IMG/VR virus record: IMGVR_UViG_3300037847_006885
Location: 1-43,612 of that record
From: a virus
Strand: one strand, 5' to 3'
DNA: 43,612 nucleotides
The notes below the pieces were generated by a model. It did not search any database, was not told where the DNA came from, and was given only the letters and a program-made list of their open reading frames with translations. This document shows, piece by piece, positions 4,099 to 22,180 of the stretch. The number at the start of each line of letters is the position of its first letter. Position 1 is the first letter of the stretch. A program made the position numbers and the translations under genes.

Positions 4099-4184
4099 GG
4101 GAGTATGCCGGAATTGGTCTACGGAACGGACTTAAAATCCGTCGAGCTGTAAAGCTCTTGCGGGTTCAAGTCCCGCTACTCCCA
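4099..4184 (+). tRNA. tRNA-Leu (anticodon UAA)
   Basis: The 86-nt sequence folds as a class II tRNA. The acceptor stem is GGGAGTA/TACTCCC, the D stem CCG/CGG, the anticodon stem ACGGA/TCCGT with loop CTTAAAA giving anticodon TAA, the long variable arm GAGCT..AGCTC, and the T arm GCGGGTTCAAGTCCCGC. The discriminator is A and no CCA is encoded. It reads UUA leucine codons, which are common in the AT-richer genes of the window and rarer in many marine Synechococcus hosts. A TTGACA hexamer at 4052-4057 could be part of its promoter. Confidence 0.95.
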
Positions 4185-4853: not shown

Positions 4854-5624
4854 ATGAACAAAATCCCAGTTATCGGTACGGCAATCGTTAATACGCCTTA
4901 TTGGTTGCATCGGCTCTATATGAGCATCGACTATCCTGTAGAGCACTTTGTTGTTTTCAATAACAACGGTCGGGGTCAAATCACTCACGAAGTCGATCTA
5001 CTCAAGGAGATCCCTAATAAGTTCATCGAGAATGTTCATGTTTGTCACTTACCCGCAAACGTCGGGTGCAGCGGCGCGTGGAACCTAATTATCAAGAGCT
5101 TTATGAAAGCTCCTTACTGGGTTATCGCGAATCATGACGTTAAGTTTGAGCCTGGTTTTCTTCAGGAGATGAATGAGAAAGCTCAGGATAATGAAGTTGG
5201 GATTGTTCACGGTAGTGGCGGCGGTTGGGATATCTTTCTGCTGAAGGACTGGATGGTCGAAAAGTATGGCCTTTTTGATGAAAACTTATATCCGGGTTAC
5301 TGCGAAGATATGGATTACGGGATGCGCTTTATACATGATGATGTAAAGCGTGTACTTGATCTAGAGCACGGTTATTACCACGGCAGTAAGAAGAACGATT
5401 ATTCCGATGGCTCTCAGACTTGGAGGTCAGAACCTTCGATAGCTCAAGGTATTCACGTAGCGCACGAAATGAACAAGCGTTACCTACACCTTAAGTGGAA
5501 TGAAGCGTGGCAAGGACATGTGGAGGGTCTGACTAATAAGACTCCTTTTAATCTGCCTGACATGCCTGTGAGTTTCACGACTTACGACCTAAGCTTCGTC
5601 CGCCGCAAACACCTGGGATTCTGA
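4854..5624 (+). CDS. GT-A fold glycosyltransferase (GT2-like)
   Basis: The 256-residue protein starts at ATG 4854; a TTG at 4851 is a less likely alternative. A Rossmann-like start (IGTAIVNTP) is followed by NVGCSGAWN (residues 69-77), typical of the nucleotide-sugar site of GT2 enzymes. Next come NHDVKF (93-98), in the position of the metal-binding DxD, and a YCEDMDYGMRF segment (149-159) matching the catalytic ED region. It should transfer a sugar from an NDP donor; donor and acceptor are unknown. Its stop is two bases before a methyltransferase gene, so the two probably act together. Confidence 0.75.
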   Translation: MNKIPVIGTAIVNTPYWLHRLYMSIDYPVEHFVVFNNNGRGQITHEVDLLKEIPNKFIENVHVCHLPANVGCSGAWNLIIKSFMKAPYWVIANHDVKFEPGFLQEMNEKAQDNEVGIVHGSGGGWDIFLLKDWMVEKYGLFDENLYPGYCEDMDYGMRFIHDDVKRVLDLEHGYYHGSKKNDYSDGSQTWRSEPSIAQGIHVAHEMNKRYLHLKWNEAWQGHVEGLTNKTPFNLPDMPVSFTTYDLSFVRRKHLGF

Positions 5625-5626
5625 TC

Positions 5627-6310
5627 ATGCGAGTAGTACGACACCGTATTCCTAGTGAGTGTTGGTCGACCGACGACGACGCGGCGGCTCAGAGCTTCAG
5701 CAACTGGGACTATGTTCTTGACAGTGTTTCGACTGCTTCAAAATGTCATATTAATATTGATAACCCTTACGCTAACGCTTTCCCTGGCGATCACTATCGG
5801 CTTCTTGCTGGTCTCATTTTTAATCTCGACCGCAGGGGCGGACCTCTCAGCCTGGTCGATATCGGAACGCACTACGGAGCTTCTACTCGCGTAATGCTTG
5901 ACTACTCACCCAACCAGGACAAGGTATCTACCTTTGATGTAACACCGTGGAAGAAACATCAAACCACTTATTTGACCGAAGAGGATTTTTCGAGCGGGAG
6001 GCTAACACAGCATATAGAAGACCTTAAGAAAAGTGAGGTATTTAGCAAGTTCGTAAAGTTACTTGTTAACGCCGACTTCATTATGTGTGACGGCCCGAAA
6101 GACGGTGTATTTGAAAGAACTTTCGCTAGTTTATTAACAACAATCGAGTTTCCTAAAAAAGATCGTTGGCTACTCCTGGACGACATTCGTTTTCCTAGCG
6201 AACTGCCCCTTTGGCGTTTGATTGCTTCTCCTAAAATCGATCTAACGTCGTTTGGTCACTTCAGCGGTACAGGTTTGGTCAATATCTCTGAGGGGCTAAA
6301 ACTTGGCTAA
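5627..6310 (+). CDS. Class I SAM-dependent methyltransferase
   Basis: This 227-residue protein carries motif I VDIGTHYGAS (residues 77-86), FDVTPW (103-108) in the acidic strand, IMCDGPKDG (152-160) and LLLDDIRF (182-189). The layout resembles the Methyltransf_24 type also seen at 3250-4005, but the sequences differ, so they are not recent duplicates. It follows the glycosyltransferase by two bases and its stop overlaps the next start (TAATG at 6308-6312). Methylation of a glycan or sugar nucleotide is inferred from context. Confidence 0.7.
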   Translation: MRVVRHRIPSECWSTDDDAAAQSFSNWDYVLDSVSTASKCHINIDNPYANAFPGDHYRLLAGLIFNLDRRGGPLSLVDIGTHYGASTRVMLDYSPNQDKVSTFDVTPWKKHQTTYLTEEDFSSGRLTQHIEDLKKSEVFSKFVKLLVNADFIMCDGPKDGVFERTFASLLTTIEFPKKDRWLLLDDIRFPSELPLWRLIASPKIDLTSFGHFSGTGLVNISEGLKLG

Positions 6311-6582: not shown

Positions 6583-7078
6583 GGCAGATTATGAATTAGC
6601 GTCTCGGATGCTGGGTCTTCCTATGCCCGAGACTCCCGACGAACAAGCTGCTGCAGCCCCGATGGTGGCCTACGTCTTGCGTAGCTTTGCGCAAGGAAAG
6701 GCTCCTCGGATGGAAGGAGAGCCTGGCGGTATGTACACCGGGGCCACTCGTTCACTTAATTCTTATCCGGATATTGATGATCCTATGGGTCGCAACCAGT
6801 TAGCGGCTCGTCTGCGTGTGGAACAAGCTGATCCTCCGGCTATGGATCCTGTTCTGGTTGAACTGCTTGATCGTGTTTGTGAAAGACCAGATCTTATTGA
6901 TGAGATGCTGGAGATGTTAGATATTCTTGAGCGTCAAGGGGATATGCACATGGATGAGCTTTCTGCTCAGCGTCCTGCTGAATACGACACACCGAATATG
7001 GGCGGTAATTATTCGATGCTCAACGCTCCTTCGAGCAACAATATTCCTCCTTCAATCCAGTTCCAACAGTTGAGCTGA
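6572..7078 (+). CDS. Hypothetical virion protein
   Basis: The start is GTG 6572, inside the end of the regulator gene. The 168-residue product has an Ala/Glu-rich helical N-terminus, a Gly/Tyr/Met segment and an acidic helical part around residues 95-130 rich in Leu, Asp, Glu and Met. The C-terminus is Asn/Pro/Gln-rich. No family is recognised. It opens a run of seven genes joined by 1- to 4-base overlaps or very short gaps that look like one internal-virion-protein operon. Confidence 0.5.
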   Translation: MFSRADYELASRMLGLPMPETPDEQAAAAPMVAYVLRSFAQGKAPRMEGEPGGMYTGATRSLNSYPDIDDPMGRNQLAARLRVEQADPPAMDPVLVELLDRVCERPDLIDEMLEMLDILERQGDMHMDELSAQRPAEYDTPNMGGNYSMLNAPSSNNIPPSIQFQQLS

Positions 7079-10237: not shown

Positions 10238-11266
10238 GTCGTTAACACCTAGAGGTAACTCGATACAATCTGTTTCTTCGTCGTACTCTCCACCGAAGGG
10301 AAGGATACAAGCTGGTTGTTTTGATACAGGTGCCCCCGTGGCGTCGGTCCACCAGATGAGTTTGTCTTCTGTAGAACCACTAAACAGAGCCTCTGTGCAC
10401 ATCCGAGTTATCTTCGTCATCTCTTCGTCGAGTGTGTAAGCTCCCAGGTGGTACAAAAGATAAGTAATCTGCTTTTGGGCATCAAAAGCCATGTACTTCC
10501 AGTGGAAGAACACAAGCCATTCGTCTCCGATTTTTATAGGAGCTGTCGAGTTGAAAGTCGGATTCTCTCCGACAACTTTTTTAAGGCAGCTGGAATCGAT
10601 AGTCTTATCTGGTTTGCCTGGTGTTTTAATTGTCAGGGGGATGGTTGAATAAAGAAGTTTTAGTTCTTCTTTGTCGGTGAAGAAGCACCAGTTCTTTTCT
10701 GGTTTTCCTGCTTCGAGGTTTTGTCCTGCAGGAGGATAGACACAATCCACTACCTCACCGTGGGTCGTAAGTTTACCCACGCAGACCTTTGGTTGATTTA
10801 CAAGAAGATGCTTAGAGCTGTCCCATTTAGACGCGTAAGAGCTTGTGATGAACTGACAGTAAATTTCACCGTCAGGTGCTTTGAACAATCGTGGATCTTC
10901 GTAGCTGAGACGGTGCGGAGCAGTTCGAACCTTACGAGCGCCGAGGATCGTGTCATCACTTACTAGCTCCCCTACGTAGACCTCTGTGGGAGTGTTGTTG
11001 TAGTAAAAATATTTTTGATCATGCCGAAATACGAATGGTTCGGGTTGACTACGGAACGCAAGAAGAAGATGTCCCTTTTCGCGGACCAAACAAGGGCTGA
11101 AATTAGCAATCGATTGATCTGGCAAACCCCAGCAAATCCTTGTAAAAGTGCCTCCGATATCTTCTGCCTGTTGGTAGACAGTCCCGTAACCGGAACTAGG
11201 TCGCATCTTAATAGGATGCTCTAGATAAGTAAGTGCTGCTGCGTGACGTACGTGTTGAGTAGTCAT
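10175..11266 (-). CDS. Five-bladed beta-propeller glycosidase/phosphorylase-like protein (GH130/GH43-type)
   Basis: The 363-residue protein has repeated beta-blade signatures: NFSPCLV and LLLAFRSQP near residues 55-75, SYEDPRLFKAPDGEIYCQF (about 121-139) and NPTFNSTAPIKIGDEWLVFF (about 235-254). The EDPRLF motif is characteristic of GH130-type mannoside phosphorylases and related propellers. Acting on a beta-mannoside or a similar phage-made glycan is plausible, though catalytic residues cannot be fixed by eye. Its ATG overlaps the stop of the upstream GT4 gene (ATGA), so both are one operon. It converges on the gene ending at 10237. Confidence 0.6.
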   Translation of the reverse strand: MTTQHVRHAAALTYLEHPIKMRPSSGYGTVYQQAEDIGGTFTRICWGLPDQSIANFSPCLVREKGHLLLAFRSQPEPFVFRHDQKYFYYNNTPTEVYVGELVSDDTILGARKVRTAPHRLSYEDPRLFKAPDGEIYCQFITSSYASKWDSSKHLLVNQPKVCVGKLTTHGEVVDCVYPPAGQNLEAGKPEKNWCFFTDKEELKLLYSTIPLTIKTPGKPDKTIDSSCLKKVVGENPTFNSTAPIKIGDEWLVFFHWKYMAFDAQKQITYLLYHLGAYTLDEEMTKITRMCTEALFSGSTEDKLIWWTDATGAPVSKQPACILPFGGEYDEETDCIELPLGVNDSFMGIFRCPLVNILGILETV

Positions 11267-15710: not shown

Positions 15711-16523
15711 ATGTTGTTAGATTGTTTTCCGTACTTCAACGAGAAAGAACTTCTTGAGCTTCGTATTCGCACCCTAGAAGACCATGTAGATGGTTTTTTG
15801 ATTACTGATGCAAATAAAACTCACAGAGGTGAAGATAAGCCGTTTACGTGCCTAGATACGATTCGAGAGCTTGGTCTACCCGAAGACAAAATTCAAATTC
15901 TCCACGTCGAGTTACCTACTTACGAAGAAGCCCCTGACCCGTGGGTTCGTGAGCGCGGTCAGAGAGACGCACTGAGCGTTGGTCTCTTTATGACCCCGGA
16001 CGACACTTTCTTTATCTGCAGTGACTGTGATGAAATTACTAACCCCGACAAACTAGAAGAAATCAAAGAAACGGTTCTAGAAAACAAAGATAAAGTCGTG
16101 CGCATGAGTATGTCTATGCACTACGGACGTGCTGATCGTCAGTTGATTTCTCCCAAAGGAGAAAAATTTGACTGGCGTTGCGGCACAGCTTCTACTGTGG
16201 GACAACTGCGAGATTTTGGTACTTTGTCCTCCCTCAGGGCCTCTACAAACAACGTTTATGTAGGGGATCGTGACGCTGGTTGGCACCTTAGTTGGATGGG
16301 TGATGCCGACAAGCGGAAGACCAAACTTCGTTCTATAGCAGAGTATTACATCTGGGATAAACCAGAAGTTCAGGAAAAATGTGAAAACTTTGTGCCTGAA
16401 GAAGGTAATACAGACATGTTAGGTCGAGAAGATCACCTTATTACTACTTATCCGGTATCTGACCTTCCTGAACCTACCCTTAGAATAGAACGAGTACGGA
16501 ACTACCTTCTGCCTGACAGCTGA
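15711..16523 (+). CDS. GT17-family glycosyltransferase
   Basis: The 270-residue protein opens with LLDCFPYFNEKELLELRI (residues 2-19). It continues with VDGFLITDANKTHRG (26-40), WVRERGQRDAL (78-88) and the metal-binding FFICSDCDEI (100-109). This arrangement is characteristic of GT17, named for beta-1,4-N-acetylglucosaminyltransferases and common in giant viruses, cyanobacteria and phages. Later GWHLSWMG (186-193) is also typical. Donor and acceptor here are unknown. It stands alone between a small acidic protein and the portal gene. Confidence 0.85.
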   Translation: MLLDCFPYFNEKELLELRIRTLEDHVDGFLITDANKTHRGEDKPFTCLDTIRELGLPEDKIQILHVELPTYEEAPDPWVRERGQRDALSVGLFMTPDDTFFICSDCDEITNPDKLEEIKETVLENKDKVVRMSMSMHYGRADRQLISPKGEKFDWRCGTASTVGQLRDFGTLSSLRASTNNVYVGDRDAGWHLSWMGDADKRKTKLRSIAEYYIWDKPEVQEKCENFVPEEGNTDMLGREDHLITTYPVSDLPEPTLRIERVRNYLLPDS

Positions 16524-16537
16524 GGGTCAAATAAATA

Positions 16538-18754
16538 ATGACAGCTTCCATCGATGTCCGTAGTCAGTTTGAAGAGATTTTAGAGGCAGCTCGCACTCAA
16601 GATCGTTCTAATCAAGCTGCAACGATGGTGGTCTTGAGCCATCTACAGCAGATGACTCTTCTGATGATCAAGAAGGGTCTGTCTTTTTATTGTGATCAAG
16701 ATACGTATAAATCCAGAACTAGGTTTTTAAACGACGTTATTGAGCTGAATAGGTTAGATATTCGTTTCCCTGCGATTATTCGTAACTTTTTAATCGATGG
16801 TTGCGGACTTTTTTACTTTAGACCTGACCCTAAATTGAAATATCAGATCTACTTCTTCAATAAGAAGCAGTATCGGGTCTTTCACGACGCTAACGGTCAG
16901 ATTGAAGAGGTCGTAATCATTTATGACTACAAAGTAAAGAACAATAATCTTGGTTTACCGAGTGATGTGTACGGTCAGAACAAGCGTTATGTGCGTCTGA
17001 GCATCACTGCGGATTATATCGTTGAGAACGAGTCCGATACAGAGCTTAGTTTTGAGCTTGAACCTGGCGGTGTTCTTACAGCAGACCGTAAAAGACCGAA
17101 TTCACTCGGTTTTGTCCCTGCTGTTGAGGTTTTAAACAAACCAAACGCCAGCGGGACCGAAGGAGAAGGTGATTTCGACCCGTTCATGGAGCAGATTGTG
17201 CTTCATGACCAGATGATTAAGAATATTTCGAAAAATATCGAGTTTTTCGGCAACCCAACGCTTATTTCGAGTCGACCTAGGTCAGACCTGGTCGAAGCAA
17301 ACGACTCTGGTAACACTTTTCGACCCACAATCAGCTCTCAGTCGGGTTTTGCGGGTCAAAATACGCCTTCCACACGGGTTAGTGAGCCTTTTGGCTCCTC
17401 GATGGGTGGTGGGCTGCGTGTTCCACGCATTATTGCCAACGTAGAGCCTTCGGACCGAGTCGGTTACATGACTCCGGACCCGATTAGCGGTGATATGAAC
17501 CGCTATGCGCTTCTTTTACGCGAAGAAATCCGTACAGCCCTCGGCGGTGTGGATGAAATCTCTATTTCAGCCGGAGCAACGGCTACAGAGATTAAAGGTT
17601 TGATGGGAAGGGCTCAAGCGACCGCAACGAGGAAGAATAAGAGCTTCCTTACTTATGGTTTCTGTGCTCTTTTGGAAATGATGATTTTCCACCAGGAAAA
17701 CATCTTCCGTGAGTCATTTATTGCGGCGATCGGTCTAAAAGAACCAAAAGTCCCTGAAGAACAGACTGAAGAAACCTTTGAGCGTTATCAAAAAGCTCGT
17801 TTCCGCTTTGAGCAGAAACTTGATAAGGAAATGCTCAAAGCTGTCACCGAAAACAAAGTACCAAGGGGTGTCGTTGGTCTTCCTAAAGACGGCGCACGCA
17901 ACGTCAGTTATAGATATCAAGGTGATGTCTATGAAGACACTGCTTACGACGTCCTTCAGAAGTCCATGGTCGTTCGAAATATGCAGGAGTTAGGTGTTGA
18001 GAGTGTTGAAGCTCTTAAATACCTTTTCCCTGATAAAAATGAATCCGAACGTGCCGAAATGTTGAAAGGATTTCCTTTCAGAATGGTTGGACAAGTACAG
18101 TCGTCAATGCAGCAATTCCTGGTATTATTAAACCAGATGTTGCAGTCTCCGCATCCTCTTGCGCCTGATCAACCTTTAGCGGCTGATCCTAGGCTGAATA
18201 TCACTCCGCTCCTGTACAGGACATTCGACCATCTTGCGGAAGAACTAACTTATTCCGGTAGCTATGAGCCAGCAGATCCAAGCTTCGATCCCGAGCCCGG
18301 TCTCCCCGGCACCAGCGCCGGTAATCAGCGACCAGGGTTCAACAACAGTCTCACCCCAGCAATGGGTGGTGCAAGGAGCTACCCCGGTGGTAGCTTCGGC
18401 TCCTACAGCCCAACCGCCGTCCCAGGTGGCACCGGCTTCGGACCCTTCTATCAGCAGCCAGTCCAGCCAGTCAACGTTCAGCTCCTCCCCAACCAACCCT
18501 TGGGAAGCAGCGATGGGCTCACTGGAGCGGGTTCTGACTTCCCAGTCACAGTCCCCCAGCCAGGCAGCGTCGTATCCAACCCAGGCTCCACTGCAGGCTA
18601 CAACACCGATCAGTCAGCCTTCACAGGCCCAGCCCTCGGTTTACCAGCAGCCGGTTCAGCAGACCTCGCCTACCAGCGCCTCTCAGACCCAAGCTTCCTC
18701 CAAGGGTTCTACGGACCCGAAACTAAGCGAGGCAAGCGCAGAGGTCGTTCGTAA
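16538..18754 (+). CDS. Portal protein
   Basis: The 738-residue protein follows the terminase block and precedes scaffold and capsid genes, the standard portal position. It has a wing-like start, a RYVRLSITADYIVENE region (about residues 149-164), a central GGVDEISISAGATATEIKG stretch (about 340-360) and long helices in residues 390-470, as expected for portal stem and crown. The last 163 residues or so are rich in Gly, Pro, Ser and Gln and are encoded in a region that also encodes the next protein in another frame. The family subtype is not identifiable by eye. Confidence 0.75.
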   Translation: MTASIDVRSQFEEILEAARTQDRSNQAATMVVLSHLQQMTLLMIKKGLSFYCDQDTYKSRTRFLNDVIELNRLDIRFPAIIRNFLIDGCGLFYFRPDPKLKYQIYFFNKKQYRVFHDANGQIEEVVIIYDYKVKNNNLGLPSDVYGQNKRYVRLSITADYIVENESDTELSFELEPGGVLTADRKRPNSLGFVPAVEVLNKPNASGTEGEGDFDPFMEQIVLHDQMIKNISKNIEFFGNPTLISSRPRSDLVEANDSGNTFRPTISSQSGFAGQNTPSTRVSEPFGSSMGGGLRVPRIIANVEPSDRVGYMTPDPISGDMNRYALLLREEIRTALGGVDEISISAGATATEIKGLMGRAQATATRKNKSFLTYGFCALLEMMIFHQENIFRESFIAAIGLKEPKVPEEQTEETFERYQKARFRFEQKLDKEMLKAVTENKVPRGVVGLPKDGARNVSYRYQGDVYEDTAYDVLQKSMVVRNMQELGVESVEALKYLFPDKNESERAEMLKGFPFRMVGQVQSSMQQFLVLLNQMLQSPHPLAPDQPLAADPRLNITPLLYRTFDHLAEELTYSGSYEPADPSFDPEPGLPGTSAGNQRPGFNNSLTPAMGGARSYPGGSFGSYSPTAVPGGTGFGPFYQQPVQPVNVQLLPNQPLGSSDGLTGAGSDFPVTVPQPGSVVSNPGSTAGYNTDQSAFTGPALGLPAAGSADLAYQRLSDPSFLQGFYGPETKRGKRRGRS

Positions 18755-19178
18755 CTTCGGCATTGAGGCTCCTGGGATCCTCAATGCTTACGCCTGCTCC
18801 CTGGAAGATCTGCTGATGGAGCAAGCCCAGAAGACGGACGTTGTTCTTGATCGCGCTCGCGGAATGGAGACGATCCTGACCAACCCGGATCACCTGGCTG
18901 ACTACACCGATCGGTTCTTTACTGAAGTCGTGCCTGTTGATCTTGACGAAGACCTTTACGTCAACAATCAAGAAGCAGCAGCCGGTGCTTACCAGCAGCA
19001 ATACGACATGCCTGCTCCCCCCGTGGGATCCGCTGGTCAAGGCCAAGTTCCTGCCGGTCAGTCCTGGGAACAGTTCGGTGAGGTTATGAGCCGTTCTCCT
19101 GAAAATGCTTGGCGCGTCCTTAGCTCCATGCAACCTGAAGCACTTCGGTCTAAGCTCCTGTTCATGGAGCCCTCCTGA
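18264..19178 (+). CDS. Scaffold-like head assembly protein, overlapping the portal gene
   Basis: This frame is offset by +1 from the portal frame and overlaps it for 491 bases. The N-terminal half (to about residue 155) is Ser/Gln/Pro/Ala-rich and disordered. The rest is acidic and helical (NFGIEAPGILNAYACSLEDL, then a Gly/Gln-rich part and a helical end). Such composition between portal and capsid genes fits a scaffolding protein. ATG 18264 lacks a clear ribosome binding site. ATG 18513, preceded by GGGAAG, would give a 221-residue product and still a 242-base overlap. Confidence 0.6.
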   Translation: MSQQIQASIPSPVSPAPAPVISDQGSTTVSPQQWVVQGATPVVASAPTAQPPSQVAPASDPSISSQSSQSTFSSSPTNPWEAAMGSLERVLTSQSQSPSQAASYPTQAPLQATTPISQPSQAQPSVYQQPVQQTSPTSASQTQASSKGSTDPKLSEASAEVVRNFGIEAPGILNAYACSLEDLLMEQAQKTDVVLDRARGMETILTNPDHLADYTDRFFTEVVPVDLDEDLYVNNQEAAAGAYQQQYDMPAPPVGSAGQGQVPAGQSWEQFGEVMSRSPENAWRVLSSMQPEALRSKLLFMEPS

Positions 19179-19189: not shown

Positions 19190-19208
19190 TTAAATTTGGG
19201 GGAACCGA

Positions 19209-19237
19209 CCTCGCTGTTAATTCAGCGGGGTTTTTTT
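19209..19237 (+). terminator. Intrinsic terminator after the portal-scaffold block
   Basis: CCTCGCTG (19209-19216) pairs with CAGCGGGG (19223-19230) across a six-base loop, with one G-T pair, followed by seven T. This is a classic Rho-independent terminator ending the transcript of the terminase-portal-scaffold genes. Confidence 0.85.
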
Positions 19238-19776: not shown

Positions 19777-20985
19777 ATGACGTATGCTTCTCTAACAAAC
19801 TGGAAATACGACAAAAGTTTATACCACCCTATTCAGTCGGGTCCGCAACATACTGGTAATAATTTAGATTTAACTGACACTTATAGTGTTGTAGGTAGTG
19901 GCTACGTAGATTCAAAAGGTAACGTAGTTCAATGGTATGGTGTAAACAATCAAGGAATTGATTTTGGGCGTATAGTTCCTGGTCCTCCTCAGTCTTTTGC
20001 GTCTGATTTAGGTTTCGAAACTACTTCGTACCCTGAAACAAAAACTTTCGAAGTTACTGTTGTAAGTGATGACGGTAATAAATTTGCCCTAGACGGTGTT
20101 TCTCAGAAGAGTCTCACACTCATCCAGGGAAGTACTTATATTTTTGATCTGTCTGATACAAGCGTTAGCTCTCATCCTTTCCGATTAAGCGAAACAGAGT
20201 ACGGGACGTGGGCTAGCGGAGTTGAATTTACAAATGGAGTAACGACATCTGGTGTACAGGGAACACCAGGCGCATACTTACAAATAGTCGTCGCTTCGGG
20301 GCAACAAGGAGCTGTATATCCTTATTGCACAGTTCACTCAGGTATGGGTGGAAGTGCTGTCTATTCCTTTAACGGACCTCCGTACAACTTACCTTTGTAC
20401 GAGAGCACTGATTGGAGGTACGTTCCTACAGCAGTTCCTGGGTATTGGAACAACTATGACGAGTCTTATCCGGAAGCTTCTGGTGTTTTAACAGCACGCG
20501 ATGGTTATAGACGACAGGGTCTGTTTAATACAGCTAATTCAACTGTTCAGACCGCATATGGCCCTGAACCTGGTCTTAAAAGCATTGGCGCTTATACATA
20601 TTACAACGGTGTTGTTCCTTCTAATCAGGCATATAGTCCTTTTCAAACTCCTGCAGGTAATACAACCGCAGAAGGAAGCACTGGGGGAGCTGGCACATAC
20701 CCACGTAGCCAGAACCCGATGTTAACTAACCCAACAAATAACAGTTCAGGAAGTCGCGCACCGTGGGTCTATAACGGACCGGTTTATTGCCAAACTTTCG
20801 TTCAATCTATTAGGTCAGATTTGCCTGGAACCATGGAAACAGTTTCACGCGATATGTATAGAGGTAGGTCTTCGTACTATGTACCAAATTATGCCTCTGT
20901 TTACGGTGTGCTTGGTGAGGGTGTTCGAGGAATGATTCACACGTTCAGTGCATCTGTAAACAGCTCAAATCAGAAGGGAATTTAA
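19777..20985 (+). CDS. Virion protein with cupredoxin (plastocyanin-like) domain
   Basis: In this 402-residue protein, residues about 88-197 look like a cupredoxin. A beta-rich region starts FEVTVVSDDGNKF, SSHPFRLS supplies His133, and YPYCTVHSGMGG supplies Cys184, His187 and Met190. The His and C-x2-H-x2-M arrangement is that of type I copper sites. Similar domains with this CTxHxGMGG ending occur in marine phage virion proteins. Whether copper is bound is not known. The rest is Tyr/Asn/Gly/Pro-rich, like structural proteins. It starts the transcript leading to the capsid gene. Confidence 0.7.
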   Translation: MTYASLTNWKYDKSLYHPIQSGPQHTGNNLDLTDTYSVVGSGYVDSKGNVVQWYGVNNQGIDFGRIVPGPPQSFASDLGFETTSYPETKTFEVTVVSDDGNKFALDGVSQKSLTLIQGSTYIFDLSDTSVSSHPFRLSETEYGTWASGVEFTNGVTTSGVQGTPGAYLQIVVASGQQGAVYPYCTVHSGMGGSAVYSFNGPPYNLPLYESTDWRYVPTAVPGYWNNYDESYPEASGVLTARDGYRRQGLFNTANSTVQTAYGPEPGLKSIGAYTYYNGVVPSNQAYSPFQTPAGNTTAEGSTGGAGTYPRSQNPMLTNPTNNSSGSRAPWVYNGPVYCQTFVQSIRSDLPGTMETVSRDMYRGRSSYYVPNYASVYGVLGEGVRGMIHTFSASVNSSNQKGI

Positions 20986-21064
20986 CGCTACAAACGCGAC
21001 ATTTTTATACTGACAGAGCTTGTTTTGATCTAGTATTACTAAGTAGTTTCTACGGAACTTATCG

Positions 21065-22180
21065 ATGTTCATCGATAATGATTTTCCGAAGATCCTTGGG
21101 GCTGAATTATATAGGCCCCACCCGGCTTACATCGTGGAAATGGCGGCTGAGCCCGTTGTTGTCCATGATTTCTCTAAACAGCCAGGTCAAACGGTCCAAC
21201 TTGACCGTTATCGGTTCTTCGGAAATCCTGGCTCTAAGGAGTCACGCGAGCGTACTGCTGAGCAAACCATCGGTACGGCAAATAGCCGGAACATTGTTAA
21301 GGACAAGGTCCTGGTGACTCTTAAAGAGTACACCGGTCCTGCCGACTCCAATGACCCGACTCAGCCCTCTACCTTTAAGGTCGCCCGTGAGACCCTGATC
21401 ACTGCGCAGCGCCTGCTGCTTGATACCGGTAATCTCACTACTTTCCACCAGTCAATCGGCAGCCTCACGCTGTTAGACGACTACCGTCGTTGGCGTGATC
21501 GGGTGTTCATCAATGAACTCCTGAAAGCTGTTTCCAAGGGTCAGTCTTCTGACTCACAGGGTGGTTACTACTTCCCTGGCGACCTGGCTACCGGCGCTCT
21601 GACCTACACCAACGCCGAGCAAGCCAAGTTTGACGTTAAGGACGACCTCCTCCGTGTGGTCAAGTCCCTGCGTAAGCGCAACACCCCGACCTACCAGGAC
21701 GGTTTCTATCGTTGCGTTTGTGACCCCACTTTCTTGATGCACTTGCGTCAGAACAGTGACTTCCGTGAGGTGGCCCGCTACCCCGGTAACGGTCAAATCA
21801 ATCCCCTCATGTCAGCTATGCAGCCTAACGCTGCTATCTACATGGGTCAGGGCTTCGGCCAAGCCAGCTTCGTGGCTGGTGAGCCTATTATGCCTACGGG
21901 ATTTGTCTTCGAGGGCGTGCGATTCTTCGAATCCACCAATATGCCTTCCCAGACTCAAAACGCCACCATCGCTGGATCCACCGCAGATTACAACGCTGCG
22001 ATCGGTATCTTCTTCGGCCCGCAATCTGTCGGCGTCGGCATCGGTGGCAACAACGCCCAGGTGCTTCTGAATAACAACGACGACTTCAGTCGCTTCATTC
22101 AGATGATCTGGTCGCTGTATGCAGGATTCGAACTGTTAAACGCAGATTTCGTTTCCGTTGGTTACTCTTTCGACGCTTGA
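21065..22180 (+). CDS. Major capsid protein
   Basis: This 371-residue protein lies downstream of portal and scaffold. It has the feel of HK97-fold capsids of the N4-gp56-like group: TAEQTIGTANSRNIVKDKV near residue 65-83, then VLVTLKEYTGP, a long helix region (about 105-160), and PTYQDGFYRCVCDPTFLMHL (about 213-232). Codon use differs from most of the window: C-ending codons and Leu CTG/CTC dominate, as in highly expressed genes. The adjacent decoration gene shares this bias. Confidence 0.75.
   Translation: MFIDNDFPKILGAELYRPHPAYIVEMAAEPVVVHDFSKQPGQTVQLDRYRFFGNPGSKESRERTAEQTIGTANSRNIVKDKVLVTLKEYTGPADSNDPTQPSTFKVARETLITAQRLLLDTGNLTTFHQSIGSLTLLDDYRRWRDRVFINELLKAVSKGQSSDSQGGYYFPGDLATGALTYTNAEQAKFDVKDDLLRVVKSLRKRNTPTYQDGFYRCVCDPTFLMHLRQNSDFREVARYPGNGQINPLMSAMQPNAAIYMGQGFGQASFVAGEPIMPTGFVFEGVRFFESTNMPSQTQNATIAGSTADYNAAIGIFFGPQSVGVGIGGNNAQVLLNNNDDFSRFIQMIWSLYAGFELLNADFVSVGYSFDA

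Follow-up and report, generated by a model that had tools for sequence, protein, structure and literature searches.

Does the end of a phage portal gene code for two proteins at once, and if so, how is the second protein started? The question is raised by IMG/VR virus record IMGVR_UViG_3300037847_006885, which was analysed over its positions 1 to 43,612 (43,612 nucleotides; the whole stretch is called the window here). In this DNA the last part of the portal gene is also open in a second frame, which runs on into the next gene:

16538 to 18754, + strand: portal gene P, an ORF of 738 aa with its core at about residues 1-575
18264 to 19178, + strand: gene S, 304 aa, ATG start, in frame +1 relative to the portal
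18264 to 18754, + strand: out-of-frame overlap of P and S, 491 nt, very probably coding in frame 0 (portal) as well as in frame +1 (S)

Two open frames at the end of the portal gene

The ORF calls returned exactly the overlap that a sequence-only reading of this locus had described, a portal end shared with a 304-codon ORF over 491 nt. The label "portal" given there was confirmed by profile matches and by fold comparison: P matches phrog_20475 (E 3.7e-161) and the portal families phrog_64 and phrog_104 in PHROGs, and in Foldseek searches with the predicted structure (model mean pLDDT 49) the best PDB matches are all phage portals, with E-values from 2e-7. Portal fold matches comprise 33 PDB chains at E ≤ 0.001, with T7, SaPI1/80alpha and P-SCSP1u among the best. 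The C-terminal tail of P is rich in Gly, Pro and Ser, and in the window it ends in the basic sequence KRGKRRGRS.

The S frame is open from position 18249, directly after an in-frame stop, and the third frame of the overlap contains 5 stops. The sequence-only reading had argued that so long an open frame is unlikely to arise by chance; taken on the window alone, this argument is weak, since 20% of the permutations of synonymous codons that preserve the portal protein leave the S frame open. When codons were instead redrawn, again for the window alone, the S frame was open in 13% of cases with the usage of the overlap, 3% with that of the portal core and 1% with that of the genome. Conversely, the portal frame stayed open in 1.2% of permutations that keep S. 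The length of an open frame in one sequence proves little; relatives were therefore required, and it is the comparative evidence that decides.

The overlap is kept across a deeply diverged phage family

Viral contigs and species genomes were scanned with portal, S and mixed profiles, which gave 386 loci; the overlap was surveyed in the 363 of these that hold the two genes in full (238 distinct overlap sequences). In 362 of the 363, S lies in frame +1 and neither frame is interrupted over the 446-665 nt of overlap, a length that varies from clade to clade; the sole exception, locus L312, has frame breaks along both genes, which we interpret as assembly errors. Relatives with stops in one of the two frames had been named at the outset as the finding that would speak against the overlap, and this survey gave no such refutation. 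Loci with the overlap reach portal identities as low as ~40%, and the overlap is therefore old. No outgroup without it was found in portal-based scans of viral contigs and species genomes, and tblastn searches with the portal core against annotated phages returned only S-EIV1 and two marginal matches. As to which of the two frames is ancestral, a comparison of codon usage gave conflicting signs between clades.

The group consists of widespread uncultured, deeply diverged relatives of the cyanobacterial virus S-EIV1. Synechococcus phage S-EIV1 (KJ410740), the only annotated relative and isolate in the phage collection searched, is ~42-46% identical to the window in the portal and ~34% in S; it has the same gene order and the same out-of-frame arrangement, with 554 nt from the ATG to the portal stop. 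Its GenBank record, in contrast, shows no overlap: S is given there as a short CDS (59863-60264) that follows the portal stop and lacks the N-terminal part of S. The overlap was thus missed by annotation, likely because annotation habits avoid long overlaps.

Selection acts on both frames

Sites were sorted by their effect on both proteins into NN, NS, SN and SS, where dNN/dSN gauges constraint on the portal with the effect on S held constant, and dNN/dNS constraint on S with the effect on the portal held constant; P-only and S-only regions served as controls. Within the overlap of the window's clade (39 representatives), dNN/dSN was 0.17 (0.11-0.24) for the portal and dNN/dNS was 0.20 (0.13-0.28) for S, while the control, the S phase in the portal-only region, gave 0.78 (0.64-0.98). 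The S-EIV1 clade (62 representatives) gave 0.27 for the portal and 0.13 for S, with 0.72 for the S phase outside the overlap; in a third set (67 representatives) the corresponding values were 0.47, 0.34 and 0.77. The third phase is without constraint inside the overlap.

The same picture emerges from synonymous change. Close pairs show 0.33 portal-synonymous differences per site in the core, compared to 0.06 in the overlap. S-synonymous differences stand at 0.07 before the portal stop and climb abruptly to 0.39 just beyond it. Among codons whose amino acid is invariant, 18 of 48 are also invariant at the DNA level in the overlap, compared to 0 of 260 in the portal core.

A comparison of synonymous variation in both frames across relatives had been proposed as a check by the sequence-only reading, which left three options for the locus: true dual coding from 18264, a late internal start, or a programmed frameshift. 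Both frames proved to be constrained in three clades, and together with the 362 of 363 loci this supports the first option. We conclude that ~500 nt very probably encode the C-terminal portal tail in frame 0 and, in frame +1, the N-terminal half of S, with S arising by independent internal initiation; we infer from the sequences that both products are translated.

A very probable start of S inside the portal gene

18264 to 18266, + strand: ATG at which S would start, conserved in the clade of the window; most members have a stop in the same frame 15 nt before it

In every clade S has its own start codon with an in-frame stop shortly upstream, and in most clades other than the window's an SD sequence and an ATG or GTG are conserved. 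In the S-EIV1-like phages (62 representatives), AAAAGGAGATGAGTTATG is invariant before the start of S, as are the SD and start themselves, AAAAGGAG..ATG; another large clade carries AAGGAGTTAAGTTACAGTG before the start, with AAGGAG..GTG conserved. The SD of S is spelled by portal codons, which read ..K-E-L/M-S/T-Y.. in the portal protein. In the window's clade the start of S lies 12 nt further downstream than in the other clades, and the ATG is kept with no recognisable SD before it (GGAAGAACTAACTTA..); judging by these alignments, the start is shifted downstream and the SD has decayed. Ribosomes would start at the ATG or GTG inside the portal gene, mostly behind an SD written in portal codons.

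A late start of S, at the ATG at 18513, would leave only the last 242 nt common to both genes. Most members of the window's clade do have an ATG near that position, and it falls in a conserved motif, NPWEAAM. The Met is, however, replaced by Phe in S-EIV1 (NPWESAF), the conserved SD of the other clades is located at the early start, and S-frame constraint in 18264-18512 is at least as strong as in the 3' part (dNN/dNS 0.12, 0.03-0.31). Since 18264-18512 and 18513-18744 are each under purifying selection in both frames in the window's clade, a late start is not needed, and we reject this option as very improbable.

Programmed +1 frameshifting, by which a portal-S fusion would be made and S would have no start of its own, is formally conceivable as the two frames are +1 related and overlap. 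Against this, the start of S, and in most clades its SD, is conserved just after an in-frame stop, and the overlap differs in length between clades. No conserved shift site was found at the portal stop, whose context is not conserved either (TAA, TAG and TGA with varied flanks). A conserved start and SD behind an in-frame stop, together with the varied context of the portal stop, make internal initiation the best explanation; the frameshift option is unsupported and, in our view, very unlikely.

Constraint extends upstream of S

18090 to 18263, + strand: portal-coding stretch with strongly reduced synonymous change, a possible internal promoter or 5' leader for S
18120 to 18130, + strand: TGGTATTATTA, an extended -10-like sequence within the constrained stretch, by consensus match only

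Synonymous constraint is also found upstream of S. The constrained stretch measures ~175 nt in the clade of the window and ~300 nt in that of S-EIV1 (~5450-5747 of the S-EIV1 locus, L001), and none of the other frames on either strand is consistently open there. For close pairs, pS in 18090-18263 is 0.025 vs 0.327 in the portal core. The TATTATT within TGGTATTATTA is invariant in the 39 representatives of the window's clade, and the constrained stretch of the S-EIV1 clade holds an invariant block, TTAGGTGTTGATAGCATTGAAG..; in the third set, upstream constraint is weak or limited to the SD region. An internal promoter or leader would be the simplest reading of this pattern, and it would let S exceed the 12-copy portal in amount.

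One may ask whether the conservation as a whole reflects a DNA or RNA element, such as a packaging site or an RNA structure, and not two proteins. Such an element would fit the constraint that extends 175-300 nt upstream of S into sequence lacking a second open frame, and also the finding that the upstream RNA of S-EIV1-like phages has a more favourable fold than its synonymous permutations (mean z -2.6). Within the overlap, however, dNS is well above dNN, so that substitutions keep to the codon phase of S, and constraint stops at the portal stop; the upstream fold is nearly devoid of covariation, with double change in 1 of 60 pairs, and we make no claim for an RNA structure there. We thus consider it highly improbable that an element explains the overlap in place of two proteins; a cis element may be superimposed on the portal gene upstream of S. 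Finally, the view that a single frame is coding, and that chance or a C-rich composition keeps the second one open, is scarcely tenable. It is compatible with the share of codon permutations in which the window's S frame stays open but is already contradicted by the substitution pattern in three clades, by both frames being open in all loci but one, and by a third frame that has stops and shows no constraint.

S is a probable capsid scaffold

19207 to 19232, + strand: intrinsic-terminator-like hairpin and T run, just after S
21065 to 22180, + strand: major capsid protein (MCP) gene, downstream of S (phrog_1357, E 5e-22)

With dual coding and internal initiation as the preferred reading, the question becomes what S is. 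AF2 predicts helices at residues 79-93, 156-218 and 264-300, the last with the best confidence, in a model of mostly low confidence (overall pLDDT 49). The N-terminal half is predicted to be disordered and is rich in Pro, Ser and Gln, with one helix at the conserved NPWEAAMGSLERV within the overlap; the C-terminal part would consist of the helical stretch 156-218 followed by a helical bundle at 264-300. Such a layout would suit a scaffolding protein. The slot between the portal and the major capsid gene is the usual position of the scaffold, and an MCP homologue lies downstream of S in 133 of the 175 loci with enough downstream sequence (median 726 nt). Searched against PHROGs, Pfam and the PDB, the last by sequence as well as by fold, S gave no match, nor any homology to a known scaffold. 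The earlier description of S as "scaffold-like" remains a reading of the gene order (portal-S-MCP) and the predicted helices and receives no backing from homology; on gene order and helices, we believe that S is probably the capsid scaffold.

The disordered portal tail and the disordered N-terminus of S would tolerate common DNA because neither would need a fixed fold. We speculate, tentatively, that throughout the phage family the overlap ties portal and scaffold together in an old and obligatory genetic link, in which portal tail and scaffold N-terminus might act together at portal nucleation, while an internal late promoter or leader in the portal gene might set the portal:scaffold ratio.

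Comparison with known overlapping genes

In phage lambda, the Nu3 scaffold arises by internal initiation in the upstream head gene C, in frame, so that its sequence is common with C. S resembles Nu3 in that a scaffold would be initiated within an upstream head gene; it differs in that it lies in frame +1 in all 362 loci and has no residues in common with the portal. In phiX174, the internal scaffolding gene B lies inside gene A, out of frame, and the likeness here is that of a scaffolding gene overlapping another gene out of frame. However, phiX174 is a small ssDNA microvirus with unrelated proteins and a fully nested B, whereas the present case concerns a tailed dsDNA phage, a terminal overlap and a portal as the partner. 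Gene overlaps in phiX174 have been reviewed (PMC8227390).

An out-of-frame embedded gene in a tailed phage is known from the lambda spanin genes Rz/Rz1 (PMC8785237), which are lysis genes and not structural head genes as here. The lambda tail chaperone gpG/gpGT likewise involves two overlapping frames in phage structural genes, but it uses one start and a programmed shift (PMC8785237), while portal and S have two starts and no shift site was found. As in-frame internal scaffolds and out-of-frame embedded phage genes are both known, there is nothing new in an overlap by itself. In dsDNA viruses most overlaps are short, with a reported median near 16 nt (PMC8903798), and tailed phages are said to have embedded genes only rarely (PMC8785237). 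Searches of open-licence papers turned up no long out-of-frame overlap of a portal gene with the following head gene that persists across a family of tailed phages.

Dual coding would cover ~500 nt of two head genes across a deeply diverged and environmentally widespread family. With hundreds of sequences, the family offers a clean natural system for dual coding, and it makes testable how portal and scaffold are balanced by a phage that reads both from a single stretch of DNA.

Neighbouring genes

Some further features of the region were observed. In many relatives a leader, GTAGTTTCTACGGAACTTATCG, is conserved before the MCP start (window ~21043-21064). A candidate late-promoter motif common to S and MCP, GTATTAYTA, lies 31 nt upstream of the MCP gene in the window; it is absent before MCP in most relatives and is therefore probably a coincidence. 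The start of the capsid gene is apparently interrupted by group I introns in some relatives (Rfam RF00028, E 1.9e-21), located just upstream of MCP codon 5 at 10600-10842 in locus L048 and 6594-6836 in locus L046.

The MCP gene of S-EIV1 (L001 7320-8471; KJ410740 ~60859-62010) encodes 383 aa from a GTG start and is 68% identical to that of the window; in the GenBank record just its C-terminal part (61540-62010) is annotated, and most of the remainder is covered by an ORF called on the opposite strand. Between S and MCP, the window has an ORF of 402 aa (19777-20985), of which only residues 86-199 match PHROGs, namely parts of tail-fibre and virion structural families. A glycosyltransferase family 17-like gene (15711-16523; Pfam E 1.8e-12) lies between terminase and portal, and a tRNA-Leu with anticodon TAA is located at 4099-4184.
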